From NCBI GenBank assembly GCA_021793595.1, contig JAJYSL010000016.1:1-39382 (forward strand): a stretch of 39,382 nucleotides of DNA. Reading direction: 5' to 3'. The DNA comes from Acidobacteriota bacterium. GTDB taxonomy: Bacteria > Acidobacteriota > Terriglobia > Terriglobales > Acidobacteriaceae. Positions 23,409 through 38,599 of this stretch are shown here, one piece after another. The notes beneath the pieces were generated by a model. It saw only the letters and a program-made list of their open reading frames with translations. It made no database searches and was not told the DNA's origin. The position numbers and the translations under genes are program-made. The first letter of the stretch is position 1. Each line of letters opens with the position of its first letter.

Positions 23409-23965
23409 ATGAGCCAGCAAGTTGCAGATGTCCTGTTTGAGCGCTTGATTGACTGGGGAGTGGATACAGTCTTCGGTTCCCCTGGCGATGGCGTAGACGG
23501 GTTGACTGAAGCACTGAGAACGCACCAGGAAAAATGAAATTCATTCATGTGCGACAGGCTGAAGCGGCGGCGTTTGCAGCTCTCGGCTATGCGAAATACA
23601 CCGGTCGACTGGGAGTCTGCCTAGCCACATCGGGTCCCGGTGGTATTCATTTGTTGCATGGCCTGTATGACGCCAAGTGCGATGGGCACGCGGTGCTCGC
23701 CATTACCGGTCACACTTTCCATGACCTGATCGGCACGCACTACCAACAGGACGTCGATCTGGACAAACTGTTCATGGACGTCTCTGTCTACAACGAACGC
23801 ATCATGGGGTCGGAGCACGTGACACCAGTGGTAGACGAGGCGATTCGAACTGCGTTCGCGCGTCGAGGTGTGGCGCACGTCGCCATTCCAAAAGACATTC
23901 AGGAATGGCCAGCTTCCAGCCAGAAGAGCTCCGATGCGAATGTAGCGAATCATTGCGAGCATCGG
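23409..23965 (+). pseudogene. Truncated, frameshifted thiamine-diphosphate enzyme (pyruvate oxidase/acetolactate synthase-like)
   Basis: ATG 23409, with GGAAG upstream, opens a TPP-binding N-terminal domain: SQQVADVLFERLIDWGVDTV then GSPGDGVDGLTEALRTHQEK, ending in a TGA at 23535. The domain resumes one frame over from 23534: KFIHVRQAEAAAFAALGYAK (conserved Glu), ATSGPGGIHLLHGLYDAK and VAIPKDIQEWPA. The shift falls in a run of five A (23530-23534) where six would restore the frame. After about residue 140 of the second piece the TPP similarity stops, and the frame runs directly into GMC oxidoreductase sequence. Middle and C-terminal TPP-enzyme domains are missing, so this is a remnant. Confidence 0.82.
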
Positions 23966-23984
23966 ATTCATCCCTTCTCATCCC

Positions 23985-24341
23985 ACTCCGACGCACAGTT
24001 CTCTCGAGCAGGCGGCTACGCGCACCTGGTGGGCGCGGCCCGCATGGGCTCCGATCCGCGCACTTCCGTGGTCGATAAATTCGGGTGGACGCATGACTTA
24101 AGTAACCTTTTCGTATGCGATGGAAGCATTTTGCCCACGCAGGGGCAGCGCCAATCCGGGGTTAACGATTCAGGCATTAGCGGCGCGAACAGCTGATTAC
24201 TTAATTGCCCAAGGGGAATCTATTTTTACCCGCAAGGATCGGGATATGATGCAGCCAGCCATTCGTAGAGATCTTGCTCCGCCAGGGACATACGGTCGAG
24301 GAATTCCGCGGCTGGCCAATACGGGCCTCGCGAAACCATAG
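23985..24341 (+). pseudogene. C-terminal remnant of a GMC-family oxidoreductase
   Basis: In the frame continuing from the TPP remnant, YAHLVGAARMGSDPRTSVVD and NLFVCDGSILPTQG are the FAD-binding end of GMC (glucose/choline) oxidoreductases. The frame is lost in a run of four G (24142-24145); one base fewer would give QGSANPGLTIQALAARTADY, which is found in the next frame and continues to DMMQPAIRRDLAPPGT and a natural stop at 24339-24341. The N-terminal nine tenths of the protein is absent. It lies 62 bases before the intact SDR, suggesting a former GMC-SDR operon. Confidence 0.82.
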
Positions 24342-33819: not shown

Positions 33820-35100
<1,281 letters not shown>

Positions 35101-35124: not shown

Positions 35125-35391
35125 ATGGAGATTAAACGAGTGGGGACGCGGCCGTCGGAGAAGGGACCGGCGGATTGGTTTACGGGAGTGGTGCGGCTGG
35201 ACCGATTATTTGATGCGCCTGAACCGGCGCGGGTGGCGGGTGCGAGTGTGACGTTCGAGCCGGGAGCGCGAACGGCGTGGCATACGCATCCGCTGGGGCA
35301 GACGCTGATTGTGACGGCGGGCTGCGGACGAGTCCAGCGCTGGTGGCAGCGCCGGCGCAGTTGGCACCGGCGAAACTGGTGCAATATTTGA
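35125..35391 (+). pseudogene. Truncated cupin gene fused to transposase sequence
   Basis: ATG 35125, with AGAGG upstream, encodes the first half of a single-domain cupin: [20 protein letters not shown], then [20 protein letters not shown] (cupin motif 1 with the metal His pair) and [14 protein letters not shown]. The normal continuation (motif 2 with GDVVWIPPGEKHWHG-like sequence) is missing. From about 35331 the DNA is IS200/IS605 tnpA in another frame, so the cupin frame ends in junk and a stop at 35389-35391. Homologues with intact motif 2 act as carbohydrate- or nitrile-processing cupins. Confidence 0.85.
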
Positions 35392-35591
35392 AGGGACGGT
35401 CGAGCCGGATGCAGCAGGAGGAATATCCCCATCTGCGGAAGCGGTATTGGGGGCAGCATTTGTGGGCGCGAGGCTATTTTTGTGCGACTGTGGGCGCGGT
35501 GGATGAGAAGACGATCCAAGAGTACATCGAGAATCAAAAATGGGACGAGGATGCGGAGAGCTTTAAGATCACAGCGCCCACGGAGCCTTAA
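35331..35591 (+). pseudogene. 3' fragment of IS200/IS605-family transposase tnpA
   Basis: One frame away from the cupin, [40 protein letters not shown], and FCATVGAVDEKTIQEYIENQ are the C-terminal half of a TnpA (Y1 HUH transposase) of the IS200/IS605 family; the helix after ARGYF carries the catalytic tyrosine region near EYIENQ. The N-terminal HUH part is missing; the fragment begins at the cupin junction. It ends with TAA at 35589-35591, directly followed by the hairpin-rich right-end sequence. Confidence 0.88.
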
Positions 35592-35680
35592 GCCGGCTTC
35601 AGCCGGGAGCGCTTCAGGCGGCTTGAGCCGCTACCCGCGACTTTCAGTCGCAATTCAACCCACCGGCTTTCAGCCGGTGG
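35591..35680 (+). repeat. Row of four short hairpins, probable IS200/IS605 right-end sequence
   Basis: Directly after tnpA come successive palindromes with TTCAG or TTGAG cores: AGCCGGCTTCAGCCGG, GCGGCTTGAGCCGC, GCGACT-TTC-AGTCGC (35637-35651) and CCACCGGCT-TTC-AGCCGGTGG (35660-35680, 9-bp stem). IS200/IS605 elements carry subterminal hairpins recognised by TnpA, so this could be the right end, although such palindrome rows also occur in Acidobacteria genomes as stand-alone repeats. Confidence 0.65.
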
Positions 35681-35729
35681 TCATTTAGTTTCGGTTTTGG
35701 ACTTTGTGAAACATGGCTGGGTATTGATA

Positions 35730-35785
35730 TGGTGGGCGAGGCGGGAATCGAACCCACAACCCCCGGCTTAGAAGGCCGGTGCTCT
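35730..35785 (-). pseudogene. 3' half of tRNA-Arg(UCU), displaced att site
   Basis: Read on the minus strand: AGAGCA, anticodon arm CCGGC-CTTCTAA-GCCGG (anticodon TCT), variable loop, T arm GTGGG-TTCGATT-CCCGC, acceptor 3' strand CTCGCCC and ACCA. The matching 5' acceptor strand GGGCGAG is absent from the sequence beyond 35785, and no full D arm precedes it, so it is not a functional tRNA. Integrases acting on tRNA 3' ends leave precisely such a fragment at the far att site. The adjacent integrase supports this. Confidence 0.85.
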
Positions 35786-35807
35786 GGACCTTTTCAGCCG
35801 GTGCTCT
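35775..35807. repeat. 22-bp tandem repeat overlapping the tRNA fragment edge
   Basis: GCCGGTGCTCT at 35775-35785 recurs at 35797-35807, with GGACCTTTTCA between, a period of 22 bases. The first copy is the tRNA's anticodon-stem/D-arm edge. A separate 9-base repeat TTAGTTTCG flanks the fragment at 35685-35693 and 35851-35859. Between 35808 and 35928 no gene is seen. Confidence 0.7.
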
Positions 35808-35928
35808 ACGATCGGCACGCTCAGCGGCAGGAATCTCACTGCAACGTTTCTTAGTTTCGAAAACTGCAGCAAAACTAATTCACGATGGGCAAGCTGTCAA
35901 GAAAAACCTGCGATCAATGCAACTTTTT

Positions 35929-37134
35929 TCAAAAATACGTTCCATTTCGCTCGCGGCCTTCCTGCGCTGGACGCACCGGCTTCTTCGGCATCACCGCCAT
36001 CACCACCGCCAGTTTCGCCTGCAACCGTATGTGCGAGTAGTACTCCGTCAGCTTCGGGTTCACGTGTCCGCACACCGCCCGCAGAGAATCCGGCTCGACG
36101 CCATTCTCCAGCCCCCGCGTGATGAACTGATGTCGCAGATCGTGCGGATGCAGGCCCTCCACTCCCGCGATGCGCACCATGTGCCCCCAGCTCTTGCGCA
36201 GGAACCACCGCGAGGCCGACCGCGTCGGATCCCACTTCCGCGTCGCGCGATCCCGCAGCGGAAACAGATAGTGCTCCGGCTTTGTGCAGCCAAGCGCCAA
36301 CGCGCGCCGATACACCATTTGGAAAGCCCACAACGCCAGCGGGTTCAGCGGAATCTTGCGAGGCCGGTTCTCGTTCTTCACCGCCTCCGCGGGGATGTCG
36401 ACCAGACTTGGATTCCTGTCCGTGCCGTTCGCATCGACCCTCGGCGTATTCCATACCAGATGCCGCAATCGCAGCCCGCGCAGCTCGCACCCCGCGGCGC
36501 TGGTATTGTTCGTGATCACAGCGACCCAGTACGCCAGCTCCGCTTCCGGATGGCCCCGTACCTTCTCGAATACCCGCGCCTCGTCCTCTTCGCTCAGCAC
36601 ATCGCGCGGCGACCACGCCGGGATCGCCCTCGGCGCATAGTAGCCCTTCAGCCTGTCCCACAACCCACAATGCGCCAGCAGCTTTCCCAGTGCCGCCAGC
36701 TCATGGTTGATCGTCGAGTTGCCGCACGGCTTCTTCCAAGGCTGGATCTCGCCCTTCTCCGTCGCCAGCAGGTTCGCCGCCCGCGCCACCTGATACTCGC
36801 GCAGCTGTCCCGCCGTAATATCCTTCAGCCGCACGTCGCCGAAGAACTTTTCCAACGCCACAAAGTACGTGCGTGTCGCTTCGTGGGTTCTGGGTCGCAG
36901 TCGTTCACGTTGCTCGCGTATCTGCTTCCAAACCGGCACCGCTTCAGCAAGAGTCAAGGCAGAGAATTCAGCAGAATCGATTGTCAGCATTGCATTCGCG
37001 TGGCTGCATGCCGGGCAATTCACATGTCGTCGCGTATGTCTTGGCCTGGCGCCCTCAGAATAGTTACTGCCGTGGCCAAAGTCGAAGCAATTCTGCAATC
37101 GTTCGTTCGCGCAGAAGTTACTTTCGTGCTCCAT
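35929..37134 (-). CDS. Tyrosine-type site-specific recombinase (integrase)
   Basis: The 401-residue protein has an N-terminal segment with cysteines (NCPACSHANA), a SAM-like core-binding domain (about 60-160, with YFVALEKFFGDVRLKDITA) and a C-terminal catalytic domain. HPHDLRHQF gives His331 and Arg334, CGHVNPKLTEYYSH gives His357 and Tyr365/366. The Lys of the beta-hairpin may be in NENRPRKIPLN. At the usual position of the first catalytic Arg the sequence is TSAAGCELRGL, with Ala about where Arg is expected. It lies beside the tRNA-Arg fragment, its stop nearest the fragment, as in tRNA-targeted islands. ATG 37134 is kept; ATG 36990 would omit the cysteine-containing N-terminus. Confidence 0.9.
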   Translation of the reverse strand: MEHESNFCANERLQNCFDFGHGSNYSEGARPRHTRRHVNCPACSHANAMLTIDSAEFSALTLAEAVPVWKQIREQRERLRPRTHEATRTYFVALEKFFGDVRLKDITAGQLREYQVARAANLLATEKGEIQPWKKPCGNSTINHELAALGKLLAHCGLWDRLKGYYAPRAIPAWSPRDVLSEEDEARVFEKVRGHPEAELAYWVAVITNNTSAAGCELRGLRLRHLVWNTPRVDANGTDRNPSLVDIPAEAVKNENRPRKIPLNPLALWAFQMVYRRALALGCTKPEHYLFPLRDRATRKWDPTRSASRWFLRKSWGHMVRIAGVEGLHPHDLRHQFITRGLENGVEPDSLRAVCGHVNPKLTEYYSHIRLQAKLAVVMAVMPKKPVRPAQEGRERNGTYF

Positions 37135-37307: not shown

Positions 37308-37709
37308 TTACTGAAAGTCAGGGGACGGCTTGTAGTTCGCTCCCGCGCCGCCATACACGAACTCGATCTGATAGCCGCCCACCGGGGCCGTCGCGGGAAC
37401 AGGGTAGCTGCACGTGAAGCTCCCATTCGTCAGCGGGAACGTGTTGATCAGCGTTTTCGCGGTCGCACCCGGCAACGTCGCCAGCAGCTCCACGCTGCCG
37501 GTCGGCGTCGCCGCGCCGGTTGGTGCCGACGCGGTTACGATGAAATTCACCCTTCCGCCCGCTGCCACCGTGGTCGCGCTCTGCGTCACGGCAATCGCTG
37601 CAAATGGAGGGGGCGCCCCCACCTGCACCTGCACTGTCGCGCTCGAGGTCTGCGCCAGCGCCGCCCCGCCCATCGCTACCACTGCCAATATCCATCGAAT
37701 CAGTCGCAT
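37308..37709 (-). CDS. Secreted protein with one bacterial Ig-like domain
   Basis: The 133-residue product has a signal peptide (LIRWILAVVAMGGAALAQ) and then a single beta-rich domain, SATTVAAGGRVNFIVTASAP then GTVELL-like PTGSVELLATLPGATAK and GGYQIEFVYGGAGANY, which resembles the Big_3/Ig-like repeats common in acidobacterial surface proteins. The ending KPSPDFQ is short, so the gene is a single-domain form. It follows the 292-residue secreted protein by 11 bases and precedes the terminator. Its function is unknown; surface adhesion or binding is inferred only. Confidence 0.7.
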   Translation of the reverse strand: MRLIRWILAVVAMGGAALAQTSSATVQVQVGAPPPFAAIAVTQSATTVAAGGRVNFIVTASAPTGAATPTGSVELLATLPGATAKTLINTFPLTNGSFTCSYPVPATAPVGGYQIEFVYGGAGANYKPSPDFQ

Positions 37710-37720
37710 CGTCTTCCTCC

Positions 37721-38599
37721 TTAGTTGCCGCCTGCAAAGTTCGCTTCATCCATATACTCGTCAATCGTCACCGCGCTGGCATACGGCGCGGCGTCCAGCT
37801 GAAATTGAAAGCCCGAGGTCGACTGGGTGTAGGTCGAAGGATACTGCTCCGCCGGCGTCGAGCAATATCCGGCGTCGTAGTTCACGCTGCCCGAGGCAGT
37901 TCCGCAGCCATGCGTCCAGTCGTGGTACACGCCATCTACGATCAGCGCGTCGTAATAGTTGTAGCCGTAGCTGTGAGGCCCTCCTGTCTGTCCGAGGACG
38001 CGGTGATTGTAGACCTGAATATGATGCCAGCCCACCGTCAGGCTGCAGGCGACATTCGTATCGGACCAGCCAAAATCGCTGTCGATCTGCCAGCTGCCGC
38101 CGTTCACGCACTGCATGCCCCACATGTTCTTGTAGTTGTTTTCCTTATCGAAGATGTAGGTGTCGAACTCATGCGTATTCACATAGGAGGCGGTGCTGGT
38201 GATGTATACCCAGAAGTCCGTCGCAATCCGCGTGCAGGTGGAGCAGTCGCCGGCCACGCGCACAAACAGCACGTTGGTATACGCGGTGCTGCTGTTTGCC
38301 ACCTCGTTCAGATACATGCTCTCGCCGTCTTTGGACTGGGCGCTATTGTTGATGGTCTGCGCCACCGAAACCGGCACGCCAGCGCCGCCCGGTGAGCACG
38401 CAGTCTCATAGCAGGGCGGCTTCCAATCGCCGGCCGCGCTGCCCACCGTCAGCGTGTCGTCCACGTTATACGCGGAGGCCACCACGGAGGCGATGGGACG
38501 CATCTGGGAAGGCGGGACGCCGCTGGTCACGCACAGCGGGGTCTGCTGCTGCGCGCCGCTCGCCACCGCCATCAATAGAACAGCCAGGAGTTGTCTCAT
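37721..38599 (-). CDS. Secreted cysteine-containing hypothetical protein
   Basis: The 292-residue product has a signal peptide (RQLLAVLLMAVASGAQQQ) and a body with repeated aromatic, Asp, Asn, Ser and Cys residues: DCSTCTRIATDFWVYITS, YIFDKENNYKNMWGMQCVNG, and GWHHIQVYNHRVLGQTGG. The mid-section (NWGM...WHHIQVY) recalls a jelly-roll, lectin-like or LamG fold, but no family is recognised. The cysteines and tyrosine/tryptophan content fit an extracellular domain. ATGA overlap links its start with the stop of the upstream partial gene. It is the middle gene of the three-gene minus operon. Confidence 0.75.
   Translation of the reverse strand: MRQLLAVLLMAVASGAQQQTPLCVTSGVPPSQMRPIASVVASAYNVDDTLTVGSAAGDWKPPCYETACSPGGAGVPVSVAQTINNSAQSKDGESMYLNEVANSSTAYTNVLFVRVAGDCSTCTRIATDFWVYITSTASYVNTHEFDTYIFDKENNYKNMWGMQCVNGGSWQIDSDFGWSDTNVACSLTVGWHHIQVYNHRVLGQTGGPHSYGYNYYDALIVDGVYHDWTHGCGTASGSVNYDAGYCSTPAEQYPSTYTQSTSGFQFQLDAAPYASAVTIDEYMDEANFAGGN

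Follow-up and report, generated by a model that had tools for sequence, protein, structure and literature searches.

The feature at 35730–35785 in the window (the whole stretch of DNA analysed, i.e., an entire contig of 39,382 bases from an Acidobacteriota bacterium) is most probably attR, the point at which a siphovirus-like prophage lying in a tRNA-Arg(UCU) gene meets the chromosome; we put the probability of this reading at roughly 0.87. The proposed course of events is that the phage integrase carries out recombination between attP and the anticodon stem-loop in the tRNA gene, where the loop would serve as the 7-bp overlap and the two halves of the stem as inverted core sites. Integration would move the 3′ half of the host gene to the far end of the prophage (35730–35767 in the window), and the 3′ half brought by the phage itself would restore an intact tRNA gene at the other end, about 35–43 kb to the right and beyond the contig; both this intact tRNA and the remainder of the phage are thus expected in the genome from which the window comes. 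This reading is based on a tRNA fragment ending in CCA with an adjoining integrase, on the parts of tRNA-Arg(UCU) found at 21 of 41 loci of this integrase family, on the layouts of three relatives (G420, G122 and G001), on an arm motif at a distance of 22 bp, on a protein module that recurs in viral contigs, and on a left flank of housekeeping genes (including metG, argS and smpB). Counted against it are the lack of an intact tRNA and of any head or packaging gene on the contig, the lack of PHROG matches to the right of the integrase, the lack of relatives of the integrase in phage or plasmid records, an empty site that was looked for but not seen, and four of the 41 loci, which have no tRNA part. 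The coordinates of the features are given in Table 1.

Table 1. Features at the right end of the window, on the host side and the element side of the putative phage/chromosome junction.
Feature	Position	Strand	Basis and remarks
Aldo/keto reductase gene, chromosomal, left of junction	34105..35100	+	92% identity to G084
IS200-like transposase gene, 3′ part (to 35591), plus REP-like palindromes (~35590–35690, by eye)	35343..35729	+	Pfam Y1_Tnp E 1.8e-21; NCBIfam IS200
tRNA-Arg(UCU) 3′ half past the anticodon loop (3′ anticodon strand, T arm, acceptor strand, CCA); putative displaced host end, B′ side of attR	35730..35767	-	Sequence; 57/57 with G211; G420 T arms
Anticodon loop CTTCTAA; putative 7-bp overlap (crossover)	35768..35774	-	Sequence; hybrid tRNAs and junctions in relatives
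Core-proximal AGAGCACCGGC copy, putative P-side core site; also fits tRNA D-stem/anticodon-stem strand	35775..35785	-	Sequence comparison across att sites
Second AGAGCACCGGC copy, 22 bp outside core copy; putative integrase arm site	35797..35807	-	17/20 att sites
Tyrosine recombinase (phage integrase), 401 aa	35929..37134	-	Pfam PF00589 E 1.8e-10; PHROG phrog_1 integrase E 1.7e-28; alignment A1
Weak bacterial Ig-like match	37308..37709	-	Big_3_5, 32.1 bits, below Pfam cut-off 35.5; signal-peptide-like start by eye
292-aa protein	37721..38599	-	No Pfam or PHROG match; no viral-contig pattern match
261-aa protein, cut by contig end	38596..39381	-	C-terminal module shared with viral contigs; "tail-fibre-like" is a guess

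Read on the minus strand, positions 35785–35730 have the sequence AGAGCACCGGC CTTCTAA GCCGG GGGTT GTGGG TTCGATT CCCGC CTCGCCC ACCA, which comprises a UCU anticodon arm, a variable loop, a T arm, the 3′ acceptor strand, the discriminator and CCA. The tRNA model of Rfam matches 35741–35799 with 38.8 bits (gathering score 29). The 45-nt piece from the loop to CCA occurs a single time in the window, and none of 100 shuffles yields a match at three or fewer mismatches. Positions 35729–35785 are identical at 57 of 57 bases to the intact tRNA-Arg(TCT) of relative G211, and the identity of 35730–35785 to the intact tRNA-Arg(TCT) is 98% for G117 and 96% for G084. A preliminary description of this DNA, made from the letters of the window, had reported here the 3′ half of a minus-strand tRNA-Arg(UCU) ending in CCA, with a tyrosine recombinase about 140 bases away. 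The first of these claims is borne out by the sequence, the Rfam score and the identity to G211, and the second by a Pfam PF00589 match in an ORF 143 bp from the fragment. The tRNA fragment is real: displaced and correctly oriented, it lies at one end of the element, which it adjoins.

The boundary between host and phage DNA can be placed within the fragment. The hybrid tRNAs and the junctions of relatives suggest that the crossover occurs in the anticodon loop, in which case the DNA of the element would begin near 35775 and the 3′ half would be host DNA. The preliminary description had regarded everything from 35.73 kb on as cargo; this appears to hold from about 35775 on, whereas 35730 to about 35767 would belong to the host. 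It had also stated that the fragment has no matching 5′ half. ARAGORN agrees with this in so far as it finds no complete tRNA in the window, yet AGAGCACCGGC, which is the tRNA's own D-stem/anticodon-stem strand, is repeated 22 bp upstream, where Rfam reads it as a D arm. The interpretation of this repeat as a second tRNA fragment (D arm) is disfavoured, because the spacing is constant at 22 bp from one relative to the next, which is more in keeping with an integrase site.

Among 20 attachment sites aligned on the loop (a count that leaves out L144), 17 have a second copy of the motif, with at least 9 of 11 matches, exactly 22 bp outside the core; the mean match is 9.2 of 11 at this offset vs at most 3.75 at unrelated offsets. 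The exceptions are L006, in which the copy is at 21 bp (by eye), and L001 and L029, which are without a second copy. In the window, both copies score 11 of 11. A further copy, with up to three mismatches, lies 57–63 bp past the CCA in six of the 16 3′-half sites examined, L009 and L014 being outside this count with less than 50 bp past the CCA. Taking all 18 regions together, including two of the reversed phages described below, there are 10 hits past the CCA vs 1.7 expected from shuffling. Both the 22-bp repeat and the copies past the CCA are candidate binding sites for the integrase. An exact 19-base pattern of the arm is found in only two stretches among the viral contigs, because the arm varies. 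A REP-like repeat at 35668–35682 agrees with the phage arm at 35792–35806 at 14 of 15 bases, which may be due to chance, and a reading of the GTAGAGCACCGGCTGAAAA stretch as a remnant of tRNA-Phe was rejected, its stem being unpaired (by eye).

In an alignment of 29 relatives of the integrase (alignment A1), R219, K253, H331, R334 and the pair Y365/Y366 are invariant and H357 is nearly invariant. We take these to be the likely catalytic residues, with which the window would have a tyrosine recombinase equipped for catalysis. The N-terminus has an HTxxHxxCPAC-like motif that is common in the family, and the motif of many family members resembles a metal-binding site (alignment A1, by eye). By sequence profile, the best match among solved structures is the Int of PDB 6emz (E 3.9e-10, over the catalytic part), presumably that of Tn1549, a conjugative transposon.

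The open integrase ORF, which keeps its likely catalytic residues, and the two perfect copies of the arm motif argue against a decayed remnant, i.e., an old prophage that has mostly been deleted, of which only a few genes are left besides the integrase and the att fragment, and which has no intact tRNA at the distance of a phage. The contig ends 3.6 kb beyond the tRNA fragment, and the element is visible over that distance only, as it would be in a remnant. Furthermore, remnants may occur at this tRNA, since in G004 a tRNA-Arg 3′ fragment stands without an arm beside it (by eye), on a 7.2-kb contig that has no integrase relative. Taken together, a remnant is considered improbable in the window.

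A protein search with the integrase gave 346 proteins at E ≤1e-20 among 7999 scored candidates, and at E ≤1e-60 the integrase is found in 11 of 397 genomes of the same order. It has no match in the phage records and plasmid records searched, i.e., this integrase family of Acidobacteriota is absent from them. A scan of viral contigs with the single sequence gave five stretches, none of which is a relative; the search based on alignment A1 gave 30 viral loci and six genome loci. Altogether, 41 integrase loci including the window were compared, some of which are near-identical phages (L008 is the same sequence as L001, and L145–L147 repeat L003–L005). Part of tRNA-Arg(UCU) adjoins the integrase at 21 of them (the window, L001, L002, L006, L009–L012, L014, L015, L017–L019, L021, L024, L025, L029, L030, L034, L141 in G122 and L144 in G220), another tRNA at three, and none at four; the remaining 13 are unclassifiable, as they end no more than about 160 bp from the integrase on one side or have only a partial integrase.

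The 3′ half of tRNA-Arg(UCU) lies upstream of the integrase and on the opposite strand at 13 of the 21 loci, and downstream on the same strand at five (the window, L001, L029, G122 and G220, the contig of G220 ending inside the 3′ half); the other three have a reversed loop (L002, L006 and L034). In L027, G066 and G334, it is the 3′ half of another tRNA that lies downstream of the integrase, with anticodons that by eye are those of Val(UAC), Arg(CCG) and Gly(CCC), respectively; among these three pieces, only that of G066 reaches the Rfam gathering score. No tRNA part adjoins the integrase in L003, L005, L033 and G069, which have long flanks. Two other observations were made. A second integrase-like gene (phrog_1) is present among the early genes, apart from the att-side integrase, in L149 (1005–2543) and L019 (181–1383). 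Another element, at locus L098 (G250:C186, 1749–10208), comprises an intact tRNA-Arg(UCU) and, about 8.3 kb away, a 3′ fragment; pieces of an integrase and hydrogenase-like genes, both identified by eye, are also present.

The preliminary description had predicted that the element extends to the right, with an intact tRNA-Arg(UCU) at its far end. The layout was checked in relatives because the contig ends before any such tRNA could appear, and the prediction agrees with what is found in G420 (whole) and in G122 (on two contigs), both of which have the same direction and layout. Viral contig G420, 40,485 bp long, bears both pieces on the minus strand, an intact tRNA-Arg(UCU) at 40333–40409 and a 3′ fragment at 75–126, and the integrase adjoins the fragment. 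The T arm of the fragment is TTGTGGGTTCGATTCCCGCC, which is the host type, as in the tRNA of G211, and that of the intact copy is TTGCGCGTTCAAGCCGCGCC; this difference fits a displaced host end with a phage end in its place. In G122, contig C15 has a fragment (597042–597105, minus strand) and an integrase arranged as in the window and continues for 40 kb to the contig end, and an intact tRNA is found on contig C2, 1.4 kb from the contig end. Both contig ends consist of the same GCC/TAC-type tandem repeat (by eye), at which the two contigs presumably join. Terminase, portal and tape-measure genes are present in the G122 element, and beyond the fragment, on the side away from the element, the DNA appears to be chromosomal (tannase, GH43, GH42).

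In G001, CGGCCTTCTAAGCCG is present at both ends of a phage contig of 35,210 bp, and an intact tRNA directly precedes the sequence with which this contig begins. This tRNA has a C–U mismatch in its anticodon stem (by eye), as would be expected for a hybrid of a host 5′ half and a phage 3′ half. G418 has an intact tRNA at 737–813 and the integrase at the opposite end. The intact tRNA at the far end is seen within one contig in each of G420 and G006, and over two contigs in G122. A complete tRNA-Arg(UCU) away from att is found in two of 29 related viral records (G407 and G410), many of the records being fragments.

The genes to the right of the integrase have no match in PHROG, and single-sequence searches of viral contigs with the 292-aa protein and with the 261-aa protein gave nothing that was confirmed. 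The C-terminal module of the 261-aa protein is found in 113 stretches of viral contigs, of which 80 were kept, and the last 100 aa of the protein match all 80 kept loci (best E 3e-17). As the collection searched is exclusively viral, this demonstrates the occurrence of the module in viruses rather than its absence elsewhere. A tail fibre PHROG has a weak match (E 3.4e-5) in one of five module-bearing viral ORFs and a match in two of five neighbouring ORFs, and to call the window protein "tail-fibre-like" is a guess. Starts that by eye resemble signal peptides were seen in the two genes within 37308–38599 and in several proteins with the viral C-terminal module (alignment A3).

No head or packaging gene (capsid, portal, terminase) is visible in the window, which, together with the lack of PHROG matches, is what a non-phage integrative island (a satellite, an ICE or a small island) would look like, and the island of G250 at the same tRNA seems to carry hydrogenase genes (by eye). 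The relatives of the integrase, however, are on contigs with terminase, portal, capsid and tail genes (e.g., terminase, portal and major head genes in L101, and central tail fibre J in L001, L019 and L010, with replication proteins in L101 and L019). The last gene in the window, weak as its tail-fibre label is, has a module found in viral contigs. An island of this kind is therefore regarded as unlikely, and a prophage as the better description of the element.

On the left of the junction, a cupin gene (mandelonitrile-lyase-like; 35125–35591 region) is cut at about 35343, where it runs into the middle of the IS200-like transposase gene; the cupin gene is whole in relative G084. Thus, the left flank is rearranged or mis-assembled at this point. 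So sharp a break could reflect a chimeric assembly, in which phage DNA bearing the 3′ half of attP was wrongly joined to unrelated bacterial DNA. Yet the break is 387 bp outside the tRNA fragment, the DNA that touches the fragment (the IS200-like piece and the REP-like repeats) does not look like phage DNA, and the fragment itself is of the host type, as its identity to the G211 tRNA indicates. A chimera at the junction is accordingly considered very improbable. A separate observation in the left part of the window is a 220-aa ORF (23534–24196) that matches part of the N-terminal domain of TPP enzymes and part of the C-terminal domain of GMC oxidoreductases, and which perhaps represents two fused remnants.

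Positions 35340–35735 of the window have no match in the six relatives searched. In G084, the closest relative by the flanking reductase gene, there is no tRNA-Arg within the 15 kb examined beside the reductase, so this genome shows no empty site. Comparison of 12 genomes revealed a gene upstream of tRNA-Arg(UCU) that is common to nine (G084, G117, G056, G066, G334, G001, G122, G002 and G006) and did not turn up in G211, in G069 or beside the G004 fragment. Downstream of this tRNA, the DNA varies and, among the genomes compared, is clearly common to G056 and G334 only, as expected at a busy integration site.

Three relatives (G002, G006 and a viral contig, i.e., loci L002, L006 and L034) have the loop the other way round: read in the orientation of the arm, it is CTTCTAA in the 3′-half sites and TTAGAAG in these three. 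In two of them (G002 and G006), the orphan piece is the 5′ half of the tRNA. In G006, within a single contig, only the first part of tRNA-Arg is present beside tRNA-Pro and tRNA-His, followed by the arm and then by the integrase, and the intact tRNA-Arg(UCU) is 36 kb off, behind phage replication genes. In G002, an orphan 5′ half of tRNA-Arg(UCU) lies behind the gene that usually precedes this tRNA, and another contig bears an intact tRNA, with a D loop that differs, behind phage early genes; the two contigs are probably linked. The tRNA identity (core) of L034 is just 18 bases, and its 30.7 kb hold no other tRNA match at E 0.01. As the anticodon stem is palindromic, the direction is set by the 7-bp loop only. 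With the loop reversed relative to the arm, a phage would contribute the promoter and the 5′ half instead of the 3′ half, and the phages of G002 and G006 appear to supply the front of the tRNA-Arg(UCU) gene.

The integrase tree has 37 rows, namely 36 of the 41 loci and L147 (a repeat of L004), and omits the fragments L026, L032, L035 and L036, as well as L144, whose att-side sequence is by eye the same as that of L029. In this tree, L002 and L034 group together (100/99) and join the 3′-half phage L025 (100/99), and L006 branches apart. The label "3′-half or reversed" needs two changes overall, on a tree in which several branches are weak and that of L006 is long. The position of L002 and L034 beside L025 implies at least one switch within the clade, and on balance we favour the view that, as the result of such a switch, the tRNA anticodon stem-loop is used in opposite directions within one integrase clade. 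In the available text on tRNA-gene islands found with Islander, 159 of 3919 islands have a 5′ fragment [PMC4383910], and that of a review states that a rebuilt bacterial tRNA retains its original promoter with very few exceptions [PMC8371274]. No report of a direction switch within a single integrase clade was found in the literature searched, in which subscription papers were few.

How the window compares with known systems can be judged from those parts of the respective papers that were accessible. In the Islander islands, the site is in the anticodon loop in 2083 of 3919 and the fragment is a 3′ fragment in 3760 of 3919 [PMC4383910]. The window resembles these in having a tyrosine integrase, a displaced tRNA fragment, an anticodon-loop site and an intact tRNA expected on the correct side, and differs in that the intact tRNA is off the contig and that three relatives have a reversed loop, two of them with a 5′ fragment. 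Mycobacteriophages with tRNA-dependent lysogeny likewise have the integrase crossover in a tRNA gene, and some carry a full tRNA of the target isotype, as do G407 and G410 [PMC10865867]. In them, the core measures about 10 bp and no tRNA is rebuilt, whereas in the window the 3′ half is complete (45 nt, loop through CCA, which is not the too-short core of such phages), and G420, G122 and G001 have an intact tRNA. The pTN3-like integrases have attB in the 5′ half of the tRNA, like the reversed G002 and G006 [PMC8371274]; these elements are archaeal, whereas the window itself is of the 3′-half kind. Prophages of Acidobacteria have been described that are Caudovirales-like, as here, many of them from subdivision 1, and in the portion of that paper available no tRNA target or attachment structure was found described [PMC5900883]. 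Nor was a description of the attachment sites of such Acidobacteriota prophages found in the literature searched, part of which was available in excerpt.

Thus, the window has what is, on good support, a prophage end of an ordinary kind within a tRNA gene, and the reversed use of the tRNA by some relatives would be an unusual twist on a well-known mechanism. The end of a prophage is located nearly to the base in a metagenomic contig, and the place of its other end is predicted. The integrase family offers a testable case of a phage integrase that reverses its use of one tRNA gene, and the conserved arm motif could help to find more prophages of Acidobacteriota.
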